Shown here one piece after another: positions 44,832-57,635 of a DNA stretch of 64,000 nucleotides. The first letter of the stretch is position 1, and each line of letters begins with the position of its first letter. The position numbers and the translations under genes are program-made. The notes beneath the pieces are model-generated. The model was not told where the DNA came from and made no database searches. It worked only from the letters and a program-made list of their open reading frames with translations. This DNA is from Alphaproteobacteria bacterium (GTDB taxonomy: Bacteria; Pseudomonadota; Alphaproteobacteria; SMXP01), in the NCBI GenBank assembly GCA_028285305.1, contig JANQPV010000067.1, forward strand, positions 1 through 64,000, read 5' to 3'.

Positions 44832-45662
44832 TCATCCCGCCATCCGAACTTTTTGATTAGGTCGGTAGAGCCCTTTACCCACCGGCGACAACAGGAAAGA
44901 CTCCGAAATCCCGACAACTGTTTCCGCAGCACCAAGCGTCAAGAAACCGTCGTCCGGCATGAGTTTTACAATCCTATCCAAAACGGCCGCTTTGGTGTCC
45001 GGCTCAAAATAGATAAGGACATTCCGGCAAAAAACAACGTCAAACAACCCAAGCTCCTTTGGGTCGTCCAACAGATTAAATGCTCGAAAGTCGATCTTCC
45101 GACGGATTTCTTGCTTTATTGTCCAGTGCGCATTGTTCCGTTCAAAGTACTTTTGCAGGAAGGACTCTGGCAATCCTCGATTCACCTCAAAGTCTGTGTA
45201 TTCACCTCTCTTGGCCTTTGCAAGCATCTCCTCAGATATGTCCGTCGCTACAATATCTATGTGCCATCCATCAAACTGCGTACCCAGATCATCAATGATC
45301 ATAGCCAAAGAATACGGCTCTTGACCACTTGAACAGGCAGCACACCAAATACGCATACGCCGCGAGGCCGCACGAGTCTTCATCATATGAGGAACAATCA
45401 CGTCCCTGAAGTTTTCAAAAGGCGCTCCGTCACGAAAAAAGAAAGACTCATTCGTTGTCATCGCTTCGGTGATTTGCGAAACAAGTTCCTTTTTTGGAAA
45501 CACGCCTAAAGACGCAACAAGATCGTCGGCATCTTCGAACCCATTCTGTTTTGCAACTGGATTCAGCCTAACATCAGCCAAGTAGGTTTTGTCGGGCGTT
45601 AAATAGAGTCCTGAGCTTTTTAATAGCAACTCACTTAAGAGGTTGAATTGATCCGGACTCAT
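44832..45662 (-). CDS. cheR: chemotaxis protein methyltransferase CheR
   Basis: The 276-aa SAM-dependent methyltransferase methylates Glu residues on chemoreceptors. An N-terminal helical domain (LLSELLLKSSGLYLTPDKTYL) precedes the catalytic domain. TNESFFFRDGAPFENF near 90, AACSSGQEPYSLAMI near 124 (SAM loop), VATDISEEMLAKA and FCRNVLIYFEPDTKAAVLDRI near 223 are standard CheR motifs. No C-terminal receptor-binding pentapeptide region is needed for a soluble receptor. It begins 15 bases after cheB in the order DUF454-cheB-cheR, all minus strand. Confidence 0.96.
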   Translation of the reverse strand: MSPDQFNLLSELLLKSSGLYLTPDKTYLADVRLNPVAKQNGFEDADDLVASLGVFPKKELVSQITEAMTTNESFFFRDGAPFENFRDVIVPHMMKTRAASRRMRIWCAACSSGQEPYSLAMIIDDLGTQFDGWHIDIVATDISEEMLAKAKRGEYTDFEVNRGLPESFLQKYFERNNAHWTIKQEIRRKIDFRAFNLLDDPKELGLFDVVFCRNVLIYFEPDTKAAVLDRIVKLMPDDGFLTLGAAETVVGISESFLLSPVGKGLYRPNQKVRMAG

Positions 45663-45677
45663 TACTCATTCTCCTAT

Positions 45678-46829
45678 CTACGCGATAACTTTAGTGACTG
45701 CTGCCCCGATTTCATCGACGGGCAGGACCGCATTGCACAGTCCCTCTGTGGCCACTGCCCCGGGCATGCCCCAAACAATGCTCGATGACTCATCCTGCGC
45801 GAATACGGGGGCTCCCAGTTCTGCCAATCGTTGACAGCCTGCCAAACCGTCGCTTCCCATTCCTGTAAGGATGATTGTCAAGGCATACTTTCCAAACACA
45901 TCAGCTAGACTACGAAGCATGGGATCAACTGCAGGCCGACAAAAATTTTCAGCAGGCGTTTGGGTGAGAACAATCTTTGGCGATGTGACGGAACCCTCCA
46001 CGGACATATGGAAGTCGCCCGGAGCTACATATACATGACCAGCTAGAACAGGCTCACCATGCTCCCCTTCCTTGCAGGGACGGCCACAATCCTTGGAGAG
46101 CCTTTGCGCCAATATCGTTGTAAACGTGGGCGGCATGTGTTGCGCAATCAGAATGGGTTGATCCACGTGGGGCGGCAAGTCCGATAGCACACGGCTCAAT
46201 GCCGCTGGACCGCCTGTCGAACTGCCTATCGCAATGATTTTGGGAGCGACTAGGACTTCTGTCCGCAGATTTACCGTCTTGCCTTGATATATCCCTGGAA
46301 CAGCGCGTCCGTCTGTGACGCCTTTTTTATCCGCATCACGATCTTTGATTGGGCGAGAACGGGACGGGACCGGCTTTCGGCGCGAGCCGAGTCCCAACGT
46401 TTCTACCTTGCGAATGAGCTCGGTTGCGAACCTGCCTTCTCGAAGTTCCTCTGAGGCGGACGGTTTTGCAATATAATCTTGCGCCCCTAATTCCAACGCC
46501 TGCAGACCAATCTTCGCGTTAGTCAGCGATAAGGTTGACGCCATTACAATTTGTATGCCCGGCTTCGCCGACAACAATAATGGCAGAGCCTCTAAACCAT
46601 CCATCACCGGCATCTCGATATCGAGAACCACGACCTCAACATCATGACGCTTCAATGTATTTATCGCAGTCTTCCCATTAGAAGCAGAGGCAACGACACG
46701 GCACCGGCCATCCTTCTCCAATATTCGGGTAATCAATCCCCGTACGACCGCCGAGTCGTCGACAAGCATTACACGGACGGGATCGAGACGGGATCTCTCC
46801 TGTTTGGAGGTCGATGTTGCTAACGCCAC
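45678..46829 (-). CDS. cheB: chemotaxis response regulator methylesterase CheB
   Basis: The protein is 383 aa. The receiver domain (residues 18-140, VMLVDDSAVVRG, phospho-Asp in VVLDIEMPVMDGLEAL, Lys in YIAKPSA) is followed by a linker. The methylesterase domain has the catalytic triad regions IGSSTGGPAAL (Ser near 203), AQHMPPTFTTILA (His) and GMGSDGLAGC (Asp). It demethylates or deamidates chemoreceptors and antagonises the adjacent cheR product. Its first ten bases overlap the end of the DUF454 gene, suggesting coupling. Phosphorylation would come from the CheA encoded at 54211. Confidence 0.96.
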   Translation of the reverse strand: MALATSTSKQERSRLDPVRVMLVDDSAVVRGLITRILEKDGRCRVVASASNGKTAINTLKRHDVEVVVLDIEMPVMDGLEALPLLLSAKPGIQIVMASTLSLTNAKIGLQALELGAQDYIAKPSASEELREGRFATELIRKVETLGLGSRRKPVPSRSRPIKDRDADKKGVTDGRAVPGIYQGKTVNLRTEVLVAPKIIAIGSSTGGPAALSRVLSDLPPHVDQPILIAQHMPPTFTTILAQRLSKDCGRPCKEGEHGEPVLAGHVYVAPGDFHMSVEGSVTSPKIVLTQTPAENFCRPAVDPMLRSLADVFGKYALTIILTGMGSDGLAGCQRLAELGAPVFAQDESSSIVWGMPGAVATEGLCNAVLPVDEIGAAVTKVIA

Positions 46830-47347: not shown

Positions 47348-49339
47348 CTAAGAGTTCGCACCCGTCAGATTCGCGATGAACTGGTCGATCTCTACACTGA
47401 GTTCATTAGCCTGTGTGGAAAGTTCGGTCGCAGATTGAAGCATCTCCGTTGAAGCGGCTCCAGATTGAGAAGCCGCTTCCGTGACACCAGCGATATTGCT
47501 GGAGACTTCTTGCGTACCCATTGAAGCTTCTTGCGCATTCCGAGAAATCTCTTGCGTCGCGGCCCCTTGCTGCTCAACAGCAGAAGCGATCGCACTGGAA
47601 CTCTCGTCTATCTTAGAGATGGTCTCACCGATTCCTCCGATAGACGTGACGGCTCCTTTGGTTGCAGATTGCATACCCGTGATCTGATCACCAATTTCCT
47701 TGGTGGCTTTCGCCGTCTGATCAGCTAGGTTTTTAACTTCCGACGCGACAACGGCAAACCCTTTGCCCGCATCCCCGGCTCGTGCGGCTTCGATCGTTGC
47801 GTTCAATGCAAGCAGCTTGGTTTGGCTGGCAATATCATCAATCAGTCCAACAACCTCACCGATCGCTTCGGCGGCTTCTGCGAGATTCTTGATCCCCTCG
47901 TTGGTGCGCTCTGCTTCTTCAACCGCCGATCGGGCGATCTCAGCAGACTGAGTAACTTGTCTACCAATTTCCTGTGTCGAACCGGACAGTTGCTCTGCCG
48001 CCGACGCAACCGCTTGAACGTTCGCGGAAGCTTGTTCAGCCGCTGAAGACACGGCGGCCGCTTGGCCGTTCGTTTCCTCTGCTGACGCAGAGAGCGCCTC
48101 TGCCGTTGACTTCAATTGATCCGACGCGGAAGCGACAACTCCCACAACCTCTTTCACGCGATCTGTTACGCGCATTTGCTCCGTAACAATACTCCAGGTC
48201 AGAAGCGGCCCAATATACTCACCGGACTTGTCGCGAATGGCGGCAACGTTGAGATCGAGAGTCTCATCCCCAACTTTGATCGTCGTGCGGTGAGGTAGAT
48301 TGGAGGGATCGGCGAGCAACTTGCGTTGATGGGTTGGATTCTTATGAAAGATGTCGATGGATTGACCAACCAGATCATCGGCCTTGATCGGCAAGAGATG
48401 TTCGAGCTTCCGCAACGTATTGATGCTCGTTTGATTGGCGAATGTGATTTTGAAGTCTTCCAGTTCACACATCATTGCGTTGATGGGCATGTTCTGCACC
48501 ATCTCGACCAATTTTGCATTCTCCTCATCAGCCTTCACTTTGTCCGTCACGATGCTCCAGGTGAGCATTGGACCAAGATAGTTTCCGTCGCTATCTTTAA
48601 TCGCCGAAACGTTCAAATCGAGGATTTCATCCCCAAGCTGAATATTAGCGCGATGAGGGAGATTTCTGGGATCCGCAAGGAGTTTTCGCTGATAAGAAGG
48701 GCTCTTGTGGAAAATATCGATAGTCTGACCGATCAATTCGTCGGCGCGAACAGGCAGCAAGTGTTCGAGTTGACGTAAGGTTTCGATGCTCGTGTTGTTT
48801 GCAAAAGTAATCGTGAACTCTTCGGGATCACACATCATGACATTGACCGGCATGTTCTGAACCATTTCCGTCAGACGCGCGGCTTCTTCTTCGGCACGAA
48901 CAGACTCGGTTACAATATTCCAGGTCACCATCGCACCGATATACTTACCGGCAGTATCACGGACCGCCGAGATCACCATGTCGAGAATCTCATCCCCAAG
49001 TCGAATTCTTGCTTCATGCGGAAGATTGCGCTCGTCCCGCAATATTTTCCGTTGATACTCCGGATTCGTATGGAAGATATCTATGCTTTGCCCAACCAAT
49101 TCACCCACTCTCACCGGCAACAAATGCTCGATTCTCTGTAGAGTATCGATCGTTGACGCATTCGCGTAGTTGATGGTGAAGTTGTCCAAATCGCAAGTGA
49201 TGATGTTGATGGGCATGTCATCAACCATGCGCTCCAACGACGCTAATCTGCTCTCAAGCTGTGGTTTTGTGGGGGATTCGCTCGATGCGGCCGAGTCCTG
49301 TTCTACTTTTGATTCGTCGATGGCCAACGCAGATTGCAT
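47348..49339 (-). CDS. soluble methyl-accepting chemotaxis protein with three tandem PAS-like domains
   Basis: The protein is 663 aa without signal peptide or transmembrane segments, so it is cytoplasmic. Residues about 30-390 hold three copies of a PAS-like unit of about 118 residues. Each contains a ...[26 protein letters not shown] strand-helix, a Q/DIFHxxP turn, R[18 protein letters not shown] and TWNIVT. The C-terminal signalling domain (about 400-655) has the invariant tip region [41 protein letters not shown]. It probably senses an internal cue, such as redox or a small ligand. The DNA repeats are also similar, implying recent amplification. Confidence 0.93.
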
Positions 49340-52958: not shown

Positions 52959-53507
52959 TCAATTGAATTCTTCGAAACTCTTGAGCAGCTCATCCACGTC
53001 CTCTTGGCTCAGACCCTCTCCCGTCATGGCCGGACCGTTCAAAAGCGAACCACCGCCTTGTACGTCTTGCGTCGCGGACCGGGTCTCGGATTCGCCAACG
53101 CTCGCCAATATGCTCGCTTCTTCTCGCGTACCATTAGACCCATCTGTAAGCTCATCACCGAACTCCTCCAGTGATTTCAATACGATATTCAAACGTTGAC
53201 TACACAGATCATGAAAGCAGCAAGCAAACGTGATTTCTCGACAAGCATCTAGAACGGGGTTCTCGGCAAGTCCTTCTCGTTCATACTTGGAGTGAAGCTC
53301 TTCGACCTTGCCCAAAATGGTGTCAACCGCCGTATCGAGCGTCTGCAGAGTCTCTTGTATTTGGCTCATCATATAGGGAACGCGGCCATCCGGAGAACAA
53401 TCCGCATCTCCAGGCCCGGCGTCTACAGATCTTCCCTCGGTTTCAGATGAGGCATGTCCCGGCGTCACGAGTTTGAGACTGTTTGTTTCCTCTACCTCGT
53501 TGGACAT
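52959..53507 (-). CDS. cheZ: CheZ-like CheY-P phosphatase
   Basis: The 182-aa, mostly helical protein has ACCFHDLCSQRLNIVLKSLE (residues 95-114) in place of the CheZ catalytic helix. Asp100 and Gln104 correspond to Asp143 and Gln147 of E. coli CheZ, which dephosphorylate CheY. The C-terminus LSQEDVDELLKSFEEF resembles the short CheY-binding tail SQxxVDDLLxSLGF. The acidic N-terminal 40 residues are likely disordered. It begins at the last base of the cheY stop (TGATG overlap), so it is coupled to cheY. It will terminate CheY-P signalling. Confidence 0.82.
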   Translation of the reverse strand: MSNEVEETNSLKLVTPGHASSETEGRSVDAGPGDADCSPDGRVPYMMSQIQETLQTLDTAVDTILGKVEELHSKYEREGLAENPVLDACREITFACCFHDLCSQRLNIVLKSLEEFGDELTDGSNGTREEASILASVGESETRSATQDVQGGGSLLNGPAMTGEGLSQEDVDELLKSFEEFN

Positions 53508-53893
53508 CAGAAATCTCCAATCACGCGCTTCATCTTTTGCTTTAGAGTCGCGCCATTAAAGGGCTTAATAATGTAATTATCGACGCCGGCTTCACGGGCC
53601 GCGACCACGTTCTCGACCTTACTCTCGGCGGTGACCATAATGAACGGGGTCTTTTTCATCTGTTCGTCTTTTCTCACAGCAACCAGAAGATCGTAGCCGC
53701 TCATCGGCTCCATATTCCAGTCGGATATTATAAGTCCGTAAGCATCCCTATTTAGTTTCTTGAGAGCTTCGCGTCCGTCCGTTGCTTCGGTGATATTCTT
53801 AAACCCGAGCTCAAACAACAAGTTGCGGATGATTCGAAGCATGGATGAATAATCATCTACGATCAGTACGGGCATGTTTTTATCAACAGCCAT
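53507..53893 (-). CDS. cheY: chemotaxis response regulator CheY
   Basis: The 128-aa single receiver domain has VDDYSSMLRIIRNLL at the N-terminus, phospho-Asp in IISDWNMEPMSGYDLL (near 57), Thr in VTAESK (near 88) and Lys in IIKPFNG (near 109), all CheY features. It binds flagellar switch FliM when phosphorylated by CheA. It is divergent from the cheA gene across a 317-base control region and overlaps cheZ at its end. Confidence 0.96.
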   Translation of the reverse strand: MAVDKNMPVLIVDDYSSMLRIIRNLLFELGFKNITEATDGREALKKLNRDAYGLIISDWNMEPMSGYDLLVAVRKDEQMKKTPFIMVTAESKVENVVAAREAGVDNYIIKPFNGATLKQKMKRVIGDF

Positions 53894-54210: not shown

Positions 54211-57156
54211 ATGGACGATATTCTGGGAGAGTTCATTGCAGAAACGAATGAAGGCATCGAACTCCTGGATGGCGAGTTGGTCCGATTGGAGCAGAACCCG
54301 GATGATCCAGAACTAATTTCGCACATTTTTCGAGTCTTACATACAATAAAGGGAACGTGTGGGTTCTTGGGCCTTCCCCGCTTAGCCGCTTTGGCTCATG
54401 CTGGTGAGAACGTGCTCGGTCAGTTTAGGGACGGCTCGATAACCGTTACACCTACCGCTATGAATCCGGTTCTTGAAGCCCTAGACCGCATACGGTCTTT
54501 CGTAGCAACCCTTGAAGAAACAGGTGAAGAGCCGAGCGGGAATGACAGCGACCTGATTGAAGAGCTCAACAGAGTTGCGAAAGGTGAAGACGCCGGCGTC
54601 AAATTGGCATCCGATGAAGAAACCGAACGCAACGGTCAACACACGCAAGAGGACCTCTACACTCGGATTGGCGGACTATCGTCGATCGATATGGCGGTCG
54701 AGATCTTTTATGAGCGGCTGCTCGACGACGATCGAGTCAAAGAGTATTTCACCGACGTAAATATGGATCGACTTCAAGGGATGCAACGCGCTTTCTTGTC
54801 GATGGTCCTAGGAGGTCCAGACGAATACGAGGGCCGGGATTTGAGAGCCGCCCATGAGCATTTGGTTGAAAAGGGATTGAACGATGAGCACTTCGATGTT
54901 GTAGCCGCTCACCTTTTAGGCTCGCTTGTTGAATTGGATGTGCCGGAAGACGTTGTTAAGGCGATGGCTACAAAGTTGGAGAGCACCCGTTCTGACGTAT
55001 TGAACAAGCCCAGCGATCCCATCGAGGTTACCGAAGAGGTGCACGCCAATCAGGAATCGCAGAACGTAGACGAACCCTCAAAACCCCAAACGCCGTCTGG
55101 CGGTGAGTCAAAAAAGGCGTCCGCCCGTACGATTCGCGTGAATGTCGATGTGCTCGAATCTTTGATGACTGTGGTGAGCGAACTCGTACTGACGAGAAAT
55201 CAGCTCATGCAAATCCTCCGTGCACAAAAAGAAAGTGAATTTGCAAGCCCTCTCCAAAGGCTTAATCAGGTAACTTCAGAATTACAAGAAAGTGTCATGC
55301 AGACCCGCATGCAACCCATTGGAAATGCATGGTCTAAGCTGCCACGGATTGTCCGCGATCTAGCCCAGGAACTTGACAAAAAGATTGACCTTGTGATGAA
55401 GGGCGCCGAGACGGAACTAGATCGCCAAGTTTTGGATGAAATCAAAGACCCATTGACCCACATGGTTCGCAATGCGGCCGACCATGGTTTGGAAACAACT
55501 GAAGAAAGAAGAACTGCCGGTAAATCCGAAACTGGCAACATAATACTCAATGCACGCCATGAAGGTGGACACATTATACTGGAAGTATCTGACGACGGTC
55601 ATGGCCTCGACACAGACCGTATTCGTGACAAGATACTCAAGAATGGGCTTGCGACCGAATCTGAGATTGAGAATTTGAGCGAACAACAAATCCAACAGTT
55701 TATTTTCAAGCCGGGGTTCTCGACCGCAACGAATGTGACCAACGTTTCCGGCCGGGGTGTTGGGATGGACGTTGTCCGAAGCAATATTGGCAAGATCGGG
55801 GGAACTGTCGAATTGAGCTCCTCTGCCGGCAAGGGAACCAAATTTACCATCAAGATCCCTCTCACTCTTGCGATAATCTCTGCGCTCATTGTTGAAAGTG
55901 GCGGACAAAGATTCGCGCTACCCCAAAACAGCGTCATTGAACTTGTTCGCATCACGAGTAATTCGACCCACAAAATTGAAATGGTGAAAGGGACGCCAGT
56001 CCTAAGACTTCGGGACAGACTGCTTTCGCTTGTAAACTTGAAATCGCTGTTGGAAATCGAAAATCAAGGAAGCCAAAACGAAACCTATGTGATCGTCACA
56101 CAAGTCGGAACGCAGATGTTCGGAATTGTCGTGGACCGGGTGTTTGATACCGAAGAAATTGTGGTCAAGCCGGTCGCGGAAGCACTGAGGAATCTCCCGA
56201 TCTACAGCGGCAATACAATTCTGGGAGACGGGAGCGTCATTATGATACTCGACCCCATCGGGATTGCGAATGTGAACGGTGTTTCGACCAGCGGCGAAGA
56301 CAGCTACGAAGAGTCTACGGAAGATATGGCGCATCTGCGGGAAAAAACGTCCATGTTGATTTTCAAAGCCGGCCAAGGTGCCCCGAAGGCAGTACCTTTA
56401 GCGCTCGTCTCTCGGATCGAAGACATCAGCCTGGACGACGTTGAAAACGCGGGCGGCCAACCTGCGGTCCAGTACCGGGATCAGTTGATGCCGCTTGTGA
56501 CGCTTACAAAAGATCAGCAACCCTTCAAAGAATCCAAGCAACCTGTCTTGGCGTTCTCCGATCGCGGAAGATCCGTTGGTCTTGTAACTGACGAGATAAT
56601 TGACATTGTCGAAACAGATGTTTCGGTAGAAATGAAGACCGAGAGTAATGGTTTGATTGGTACAGCAATCATAGGGGGGACTGCCACGGACCTCATCGAC
56701 ACGACTCACTTTCTAGGGCAGGCCTGCGACGACTGGTTTGATGTTCAGCGCGAGTCCTCATTCGGCGACACCGGAGAAAAACACATTCTCCTGGTGGATG
56801 ACAGTTCATTCTTTAGAAATCTGCTCACGCCGATTCTCGAAAGTGCCGGTTACAAAGTAACGCAGGCGGACAACGGAGCCAACGGCCTTGAGATTTGTCA
56901 ATCCGGAGAAAGCTTTGATCTCATCATATCCGATCTGGAGATGCCCATAATGGACGGATTCGGATTCGTCTCTCATGTCCGAAAGGAAACTCAGTTTGAA
57001 GAAACTCCGATAATCGCTTTGTCGTCCCATGCAAGTCCGGAAGACATCGCGCGTTGTATGGAAGCAGGATTTACATCGCACGTCGAAAAGCTGAACAGAG
57101 AGACGTTTCTCAGTCGACTAAAGGAATGTTTCGCTGAACGGAGAAAAGCGGCATGA
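54211..57156 (+). CDS. cheA: CheA-type histidine kinase with inserted truncated-haemoglobin domain and C-terminal receiver
   Basis: The protein is 981 aa from the ATG at 54211, with GGAAAGA before it. Domains in order: Hpt (1-105, phospho-His44 in HTIKGTCGFLG); a group I truncated-haemoglobin domain (about 147-264); dimerization helices (303-375); ATPase (390-550, NAADHGLE, DDGHGLDTD, GRGVGMD); a CheW domain (555-690); a second, degenerate CheW-like domain (711-845); receiver (858-975, phospho-Asp908). In the globin the proximal His215, B10 Tyr167 and E11 Gln192 line up with His81, Tyr33 and Gln58 of M. tuberculosis trHbN. The globin replaces the CheY-binding P2 domain. It could let O2, NO or haem state gate kinase activity directly; that is inference. 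Confidence 0.92.
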   Translation: MDDILGEFIAETNEGIELLDGELVRLEQNPDDPELISHIFRVLHTIKGTCGFLGLPRLAALAHAGENVLGQFRDGSITVTPTAMNPVLEALDRIRSFVATLEETGEEPSGNDSDLIEELNRVAKGEDAGVKLASDEETERNGQHTQEDLYTRIGGLSSIDMAVEIFYERLLDDDRVKEYFTDVNMDRLQGMQRAFLSMVLGGPDEYEGRDLRAAHEHLVEKGLNDEHFDVVAAHLLGSLVELDVPEDVVKAMATKLESTRSDVLNKPSDPIEVTEEVHANQESQNVDEPSKPQTPSGGESKKASARTIRVNVDVLESLMTVVSELVLTRNQLMQILRAQKESEFASPLQRLNQVTSELQESVMQTRMQPIGNAWSKLPRIVRDLAQELDKKIDLVMKGAETELDRQVLDEIKDPLTHMVRNAADHGLETTEERRTAGKSETGNIILNARHEGGHIILEVSDDGHGLDTDRIRDKILKNGLATESEIENLSEQQIQQFIFKPGFSTATNVTNVSGRGVGMDVVRSNIGKIGGTVELSSSAGKGTKFTIKIPLTLAIISALIVESGGQRFALPQNSVIELVRITSNSTHKIEMVKGTPVLRLRDRLLSLVNLKSLLEIENQGSQNETYVIVTQVGTQMFGIVVDRVFDTEEIVVKPVAEALRNLPIYSGNTILGDGSVIMILDPIGIANVNGVSTSGEDSYEESTEDMAHLREKTSMLIFKAGQGAPKAVPLALVSRIEDISLDDVENAGGQPAVQYRDQLMPLVTLTKDQQPFKESKQPVLAFSDRGRSVGLVTDEIIDIVETDVSVEMKTESNGLIGTAIIGGTATDLIDTTHFLGQACDDWFDVQRESSFGDTGEKHILLVDDSSFFRNLLTPILESAGYKVTQADNGANGLEICQSGESFDLIISDLEMPIMDGFGFVSHVRKETQFEETPIIALSSHASPEDIARCMEAGFTSHVEKLNRETFLSRLKECFAERRKAA

Positions 57157-57635
57157 GCACGTTAGCTCCTATACAATCTACGAGTACAATAGAGTCCACA
57201 TCAAATATTGAAGAGTATTTGTCAATTTTTGTTGGTGGTCAAACATTTGGGATTCCCGTACTCAAAGTCCAAGACGTATTGTCCTATCAAAGAGTAGCCT
57301 CAATACCTCTGTCCCCGCCACAGATACGCGGCTCAATCAACCTTCGCGGCCGCATCGTGACCGTCATTGATATGCGTATTCTGCTCGAACTCGATCCCTT
57401 TACGGACGAACAAAAGCCAATGAATATTGTAGTCGAGCATGGCAGTGAGGCCTATAGTCTGCTCGTCGATGAAGTCGGCGAAGTCATCGAACTTAATGTG
57501 AACGATTGTGAACCCAACCCTGCCACGATTGATCCCAAATGGCGTGAGCTTTCCAACGGCCTCTTCCGTCTAGACAAGGAACTCATGATGGTTTTGGACA
57601 TCGCGCTCATCGCAAACTGGTCGGAAGAAGCCTGA
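57153..57635 (+). CDS. cheW: chemotaxis coupling protein CheW
   Basis: The 160-aa single CheW beta-barrel domain has EYLSIFVGGQTFGIPVLKVQDVL, SIPLSPPQIRGSINLRGRIVTVIDMR and the YSLLVDEVGEVIELN strand. It links the soluble chemoreceptor to CheA. The start overlaps the CheA stop by four bases (ATGA), so the two are made together. No other CheW gene is in the window; CheA also carries a CheW-like domain, allowing mixed arrays. No terminator with a T-tract follows. Confidence 0.95.
   Translation: MSTLAPIQSTSTIESTSNIEEYLSIFVGGQTFGIPVLKVQDVLSYQRVASIPLSPPQIRGSINLRGRIVTVIDMRILLELDPFTDEQKPMNIVVEHGSEAYSLLVDEVGEVIELNVNDCEPNPATIDPKWRELSNGLFRLDKELMMVLDIALIANWSEEA

Follow-up and report, generated by a model that had tools for sequence, protein, structure and literature searches.

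CheA is described as a histidine kinase that, unlike others, has no sensor domain and depends on chemoreceptors (PMC10782961). The stretch of alphaproteobacterial DNA analysed here (the window; 64,000 nucleotides of contig JANQPV010000067.1, assembly GCA_028285305.1) encodes a CheA in which a truncated haemoglobin lies between the histidine phosphotransfer (Hpt) and dimerization domains (Table 1). A CheA with a haem globin of its own would break the no-sensor rule.

Table 1. Domains and pocket residues of the window CheA and the chemosensory genes around it (window coordinates; residue numbers refer to CheA).
Feature	Positions	Strand	Basis
CheA, 981 aa: Hpt, truncated globin, dimerization, ATPase, CheW, CheW, receiver	54211..57156	+	Translation and Pfam
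Hpt (P1), residues 3-96, HTIKG phospho-acceptor motif	54217..54498	+	Pfam PF01627, E 1.1e-15
Linker 1, about residues 124-148; 130-145 predicted disordered	54580..54654	+	pLDDT < 50, full-length model
Group I truncated haemoglobin, residues 149-264	54655..55002	+	PF01152, genome search, PDB cyanoglobins, predicted fold
Tyr167, B10 distal residue	54709..54711	+	Aligned to GlbN Tyr22
Leu188, E7	54772..54774	+	Alignment
Gln192, E11 distal residue	54784..54786	+	Aligned to GlbN Gln47
His215, F8 proximal haem ligand position	54853..54855	+	Aligned to GlbN His70
Linker 2, residues 265-305, predicted disordered	55003..55125	+	pLDDT < 50 for 270-316
H-kinase_dim (P3), residues 306-365	55126..55305	+	Pfam
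HATPase_c (P4), residues 413-552	55447..55866	+	Pfam
First CheW domain (P5), residues 558-686	55882..56268	+	Pfam, best of two CheW stretches
Second CheW-like domain, about residues 713-840	56347..56730	+	Second PF01584 stretch and beta-rich segment in model
Receiver (CheY-like) domain, residues 859-961	56785..57093	+	PF00072, E 1.1e-23
CheW, start codon overlaps CheA stop	57153..57635	+	Pfam, ORF list
CheY-like response regulator	53507..53893	-	Pfam; conserved beside CheA in L004 and L009
CheZ-like phosphatase, weak match	52959..53507	-	PF04344, E 0.0086, under cut-off; cluster-conserved in L004, L009 and Parvibaculum
Soluble chemoreceptor, three Aer2-type PAS and MCP signal domain	47348..49339	-	Pfam; PAS domains match Aer2 haem-PAS 3vol, 4hi4, 6ceq
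CheB methylesterase	45678..46829	-	Pfam
CheR methyltransferase	44832..45662	-	Pfam

The preliminary description of this locus had placed a truncated haemoglobin between the Hpt and dimerization domains, and Pfam, PDB matches and the predicted fold agree in bearing this out. The PF01152 (Bac_globin) profile matches the window CheA at 47.6 bits (E 2.4e-12, score cut-off 21 bits), and the same region matches solved cyanoglobins in the PDB with an E-value of 2.5e-32 and Mycobacterium tuberculosis HbN with 2.9e-19. A structure prediction, which that description had named as a check, shows a globin fold closest to group I truncated haemoglobins: the AlphaFold2 model of the domain has a mean pLDDT of 87.7, its helices run in the order A-B-C-E-F-G-H as in a 2/2 globin, and its top solved structural matches belong to group I (Foldseek, 8.1e-08). 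Comparison of the model with 1dly gives a Z score of 18.9 and 1.8 Å over 121 residues; Z is about 18 for HbN and lower, about 13-15, for group II and III proteins, so that sequence and fold both place the domain nearest group I. PF11563 (Protoglobin) scores 16.3 bits on the window CheA, under its cut-off of 25, and the domain, being internal and of the group I 2/2 type, is not the N-terminal 3/3 sensor globin by which globin-coupled sensors are defined. A chance match is ruled out by the E-values together with the fold. An assembly chimera or artefact is likewise ruled out, as independent assemblies share the architecture: the protein of L004 is 72% identical, and in another order 16 of 17 genomes carry the fusion. 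The ATG start of the window CheA agrees with the MDDLL start of its orthologues.

When the whole protein is modelled, pLDDT is about 76-97 over the globin and below 50 in the linkers on either side of it (residues 130-145 and 270-316). As these linkers are predicted to be disordered, the globin would be tethered near P1 and free to act on it. A genome search gave this domain as the only PF01152 match; a weak match to a 3/3-type globin lies elsewhere in the genome. The genome also encodes flagellar FliG and a second CheA, which has no globin match and whose linker has no Pfam match.

Mapped on Synechocystis GlbN, the window globin has Tyr167 at B10, Phe180 at CD1, Leu188 at E7, Met191 at E10, Gln192 at E11 and His215 at F8, and the assignments made earlier for Tyr167, Gln192 and His215 prove exact. 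The fold, the length, the B10 Tyr, the E11 Gln and the F8 His are shared with the group I proteins GlbN, M. tuberculosis HbN and Chlamydomonas THB1, all of which are single-domain proteins, whereas the window globin is embedded in a kinase. It lacks both the E7 Gln and the E10 His of GlbN and has Leu at E7, as in HbN. With its B10/E11/F8 set complete, the haem pocket is, as far as the alignment tells, apparently intact, and the domain very probably binds haem.

The globin had also been proposed to replace the CheY-binding P2 domain, and this part of the interpretation is rejected. The window CheA has all four core domains (Hpt, dimerization, ATPase and CheW), a duplicated CheW domain (two PF01584 stretches, the second corresponding to a beta-rich domain in the model), a C-terminal PF00072 receiver and no Pfam match to P2. 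By this domain make-up it is an F5-type CheA, and in the CheA-core tree it groups with Azospirillum-type CheA. Of the 80 CheAs nearest to it in the genome collection, about 60, including those of Azospirillum, Kiloniella, Thalassospira and Magnetospirillum, have no globin and carry instead a linker of 40-134 amino acids, mostly rich in Pro and Ala; no P2 was found by Pfam in the Azospirillum CheA (L032). A survey of thousands of CheAs found P2 absent in over half, mostly absent from CheAs with a receiver, and CheW duplicated in 99% of F5 CheAs (PMC10782961). Since the globin-less F5 relatives and the survey agree, the absence of P2 is a trait of the F5 class and not due to the globin, and the low affinity for CheY that had been deduced from it does not follow. 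F5-class CheAs such as those of Azospirillum brasilense, Azorhizobium caulinodans and Rhodospirillum centenum share with the window protein the Hpt domain, the lack of P2, the dimerization and ATPase domains, two CheW domains and the C-terminal receiver, but where they have an unstructured linker it has a folded truncated haemoglobin. As at most F5-class loci, the cheA, cheW, cheY, cheB and cheR genes lie together (PMC10782961); the window differs in that cheY and the CheZ-like gene are divergent from cheA.

Upstream of cheA the minus-strand genes run in the order CheY, CheZ-like protein, GAF-PAS hybrid kinase, soluble receptor, DUF454 protein, CheB and CheR, interspersed with a plus-strand gene for a Crp-type regulator. 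The FH...P and TW motifs typical of haem-PAS occur in each of the three PAS domains of the soluble receptor. In Aer2, 49 residues separate the His of the first motif from the Trp of the second, a spacing that fits its published haem ligand, His234, and its distal Trp283. On these motifs, the receptor is probably a multi-haem oxygen receptor. An Aer2-type PAS receptor is also linked to CheA in the clusters of two relatives, L004 and L129. The best reading of the pathway is that it is aerotaxis-like, with a haem gas/redox input in the kinase beside an Aer2-type PAS receptor.

The fusion is not confined to the window. When 385 evenly drawn alphaproteobacterial genomes were searched with a hidden Markov model of globins from the same CheA slot, and fusions were identified by reading the open reading frames, at least 20 genomes with 12 family codes carried a globin in CheA. 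In the order of one genome (G041), which includes Dongia, it is present in 16 of the 17 genomes. Among the loci read from a sample of 398 genomes across the phylum, CheA fusions occurred in alphaproteobacteria only; long frames with truncated haemoglobin hits outside the class (L186-L189) were read and are not CheA fusions. The annotated matches in a plasmid collection were group 1 truncated haemoglobins, with no CheA annotation among the matches listed with annotation. On the CheA-core tree the presence and absence of the globin needs about 10 changes, which fit one gain and many losses as well as several gains; the globin tree, having too few columns and long branches, is poorly resolved. 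In two Dongia-type loci (L158 and L010:5070-5906) the CheA frame ends just past the globin; the resulting Hpt-globin piece of 279 aa may reflect a frameshift, a split gene or an assembly error.

The proximal ligand is often missing from these relatives. Among 47 globins aligned from the CheA linker slot, F8 His is kept in 19 and lost in 28, a count with one row per distinct domain in which some rows are close relatives, the truncated CheA frames L174 and L175 are included, the fragment L010 is left out, and His-less finds are favoured because the search model itself held His-less CheA globins. Outside CheA, F8 His is present in 73 of 74 aligned truncated haemoglobin domains, the exception being a CheW fusion with Ser. 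By this alignment the contrast between the CheA slot and other settings is large, despite the bias of the search model. Retention of proximal His in close orthologues had been set as a check on the haem interpretation, and the outcome is divided. The two closest relatives, L004 and L090, keep F8 His and have a pocket identical to that of the window protein (YFLMQH). It has been lost from the degenerate globin of L129, the next sister, and in many other lineages. The complete set of B10 Tyr, E11 Gln and F8 His occurs in the window protein, L004, L090, L096, L100, L016, L164 and L175. At E7, 13 of the 15 CheA globins with the His have Leu, and most stand-alone relatives have Gln. According to tree and alignment, F8 His is found in about seven separate CheA clades, the pattern that an ancestral and useful haem would leave. 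The EF/F region is deleted in one genus, where the B helix persists along with much of helices G and H (L008 versus L160: B 17/17, G 12/17, F 0/8). The domain was probably haem-binding ancestrally, with several lineages later dropping the ligand and keeping the fold. As the globin is retained after loss of F8 His, haem is not needed for its upkeep in the His-less lineages, and some of what it does, be it spacing, contacts or non-haem sensing, is independent of haem.

Substitution rates were estimated between relatives, the window CheA being too distant from L004 for an estimate of dS. Between L004 and L090, dN/dS is 0.10 for the globin, 0.19-0.24 for the linkers and 0.02 for the Hpt domain and kinase. 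Other pairs give 0.03-0.26 for the globin, except for 0.51 in one His-less pair (L011 versus L099); five of six His-less pairs fall at 0.03-0.25. Of the 11 pairs with linker estimates, 10 show a lower dN in the globin than in either linker. By these estimates the globin is under purifying selection both with and without the His, less tightly than the kinase.

Globins also join chemosensory proteins at other sites. Two CheAs (L118:4392-7949, plus strand, and L119:2-2620, minus strand) carry a second truncated haemoglobin inside the first CheW domain, and F8 His is present in both globins of each; the full-length one (L118, 1186 aa) scores 122.7 bits with PF01152 over two stretches. A further CheA, on a metagenome-assembled contig (L021:8001-11282, plus strand), holds in the linker slot an F-family 3/3 globin with a proximal His (PF00042, E 1.5e-17), for which Hell's Gate globin I is the best match (E 1.8e-32). 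A search for this globin in the same 385 genomes gave no match with a CheA-length frame, so the 3/3 variant is a single case. On the receptor side, L126:4470-7328 (plus strand) encodes an N-terminal truncated haemoglobin followed by repeated Aer2-type PAS domains and an MCP signal domain, and L127:6982-8031 (plus strand), with an N-terminal truncated haemoglobin and repeated Aer2-type PAS, is the start of a similar receptor that runs off the contig; a second PAS receptor gene adjoins each. The CheW fusion mentioned above (L128:7368-8384, plus strand) has its truncated haemoglobin, with Ser at F8, at the C-terminus.

Several known systems use a globin as a signalling input. Among the globin-coupled sensors HemAT, AfGcHK and DosC, AfGcHK is itself a histidine kinase (PMC8697598), but in these proteins an N-terminal 3/3 sensor globin sits on a receptor, a classical kinase or a cyclase, in contrast to a 2/2 group I globin inside CheA. 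The PAS-Bac_globin-MCP architecture of the Corallococcus chemosensory system Cc-5, described in 2018, then found in seven proteins and proposed for aerotaxis, combines a PF01152 globin with PAS and is closest to L126 (PMC6194562); a fusion of truncated haemoglobin to a receptor was therefore already known, although the globin of the window is on CheA rather than on the receptor. The stressosome protein RsbR offers a family whose globin inputs occur with haem (Vibrio vulnificus) and without it (Bacillus) (PMC9237108), but RsbR, unlike the window CheA, is not a kinase, and its globin is of the N-terminal sensor type.

Combining these observations, we propose that a group I truncated haemoglobin was inserted into the flexible linker between the Hpt and dimerization domains of an F5-type CheA and works there as a haem-based input, a reading to which we assign a probability of roughly 0.55. 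His215 would bind haem b, and Tyr167 and Gln192 would stabilise the distal ligand, which may be O2, or else NO that reacts with O2 already bound. The ligand or redox state would change the conformation of the globin or the way it touches P1 or the kinase, and thereby the access of P1 to the ATPase domain and phosphotransfer, so that CheA activity would be set by gas or redox state in addition to the signal from the chemoreceptors. This reading is favoured by (i) the globin fold with intact B10, E11 and F8 residues, (ii) the recurrence of the fusion and the purifying selection on it, (iii) the linkage to an Aer2-type PAS receptor, and (iv) the joining of haem-type globins to the same machinery elsewhere (L118, L119, L126 and L021). 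The haem-based input suggested in the preliminary description is thereby supported as the best explanation, in which haem binding, the ligand and control of the kinase are all inferred. For the more general proposition that CheA is a direct haem gas/redox sensor in a broad set of alphaproteobacteria, controlled both internally and by receptors, with an input that repeatedly turned haem-free, we consider the odds to be even.

The loss of F8 His in 28 of the 47 CheA-slot globins, that of the next sister included, speaks against a haem input, as do two properties of the window protein. The linkers on both sides are predicted to be flexible and offer no evident stiff connection to the kinase, unlike the helical linkers of globin-coupled sensors. 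The pocket resembles that of M. tuberculosis HbN, which also has Leu at E7 and has NO dioxygenase activity, so that catalysis instead of sensing is possible. The globin might accordingly be a tethered enzyme or O2 buffer, such as an NO dioxygenase guarding the array or the Aer2-type receptors, that takes no part in CheA signalling. A pocket with B10 Tyr, E7 Leu and E11 Gln, in the sole PF01152 protein of the genome, agrees with such a role, but no reductase is fused to the globin or adjoins it among the genes examined, there is no clear reason for a detoxifier to sit within the linker of a kinase, and it is difficult to see why the domain would be retained once F8 His was gone; we consider this quite improbable.

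The frequent absence of that His and the deletion of the EF/F region in one genus would fit a globin with a structural task, as a folded spacer or a dimer or partner contact between P1 and P3, or one that senses some other cue without haem; any haem would then be incidental or secondary. Purifying selection in the His-less lineages agrees with this, and there are precedents in HemAT, whose globin senses ethanol without haem (PMC7542364), and in the non-haem globin of RsbR (PMC9237108). The retention of B10 Tyr, E11 Gln and F8 His in the window protein and in other separate clades would then be unexplained, however, as would the association with haem-PAS receptors and the separate 3/3 globin of haem type that occupies this slot in L021, and we regard this account as rather unlikely. 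The patchy distribution, the ligand losses and the fact that F5 CheAs manage without a globin could even suggest a neutral passenger decaying in a tolerant disordered linker. Against this stand globin dN values below those of both linkers in nearly all pairs, dN/dS well under 1 throughout, the near-universal presence of the globin in one order and the repeated fusions to the same pathway, which make a neutral passenger highly improbable.

If the haem-based input is correct, the window CheA would allow gas binding and kinase output to be measured together in one protein, and the lineages that have repeatedly lost the haem ligand but kept the fold would provide a natural series on the roles of globins in signalling beyond holding haem. 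A literature search, with most subscription journals and supplements outside its reach, found no published CheA globin; the word "globin" is absent from the 2023 CheA survey (PMC10782961) and the word "truncated" from a 2026 aerotaxis review. The globin-bearing CheA is a real, apparently unreported variant of CheA and not a categorically new system. Truncated haemoglobins also occur in pairs within one frame: in proteobacteria beyond the alphaproteobacterial class, two short frames (L146 and G577:C275:7800-8534; 289 and 316 aa) each encode two of them, with further truncated haemoglobin genes adjoining.
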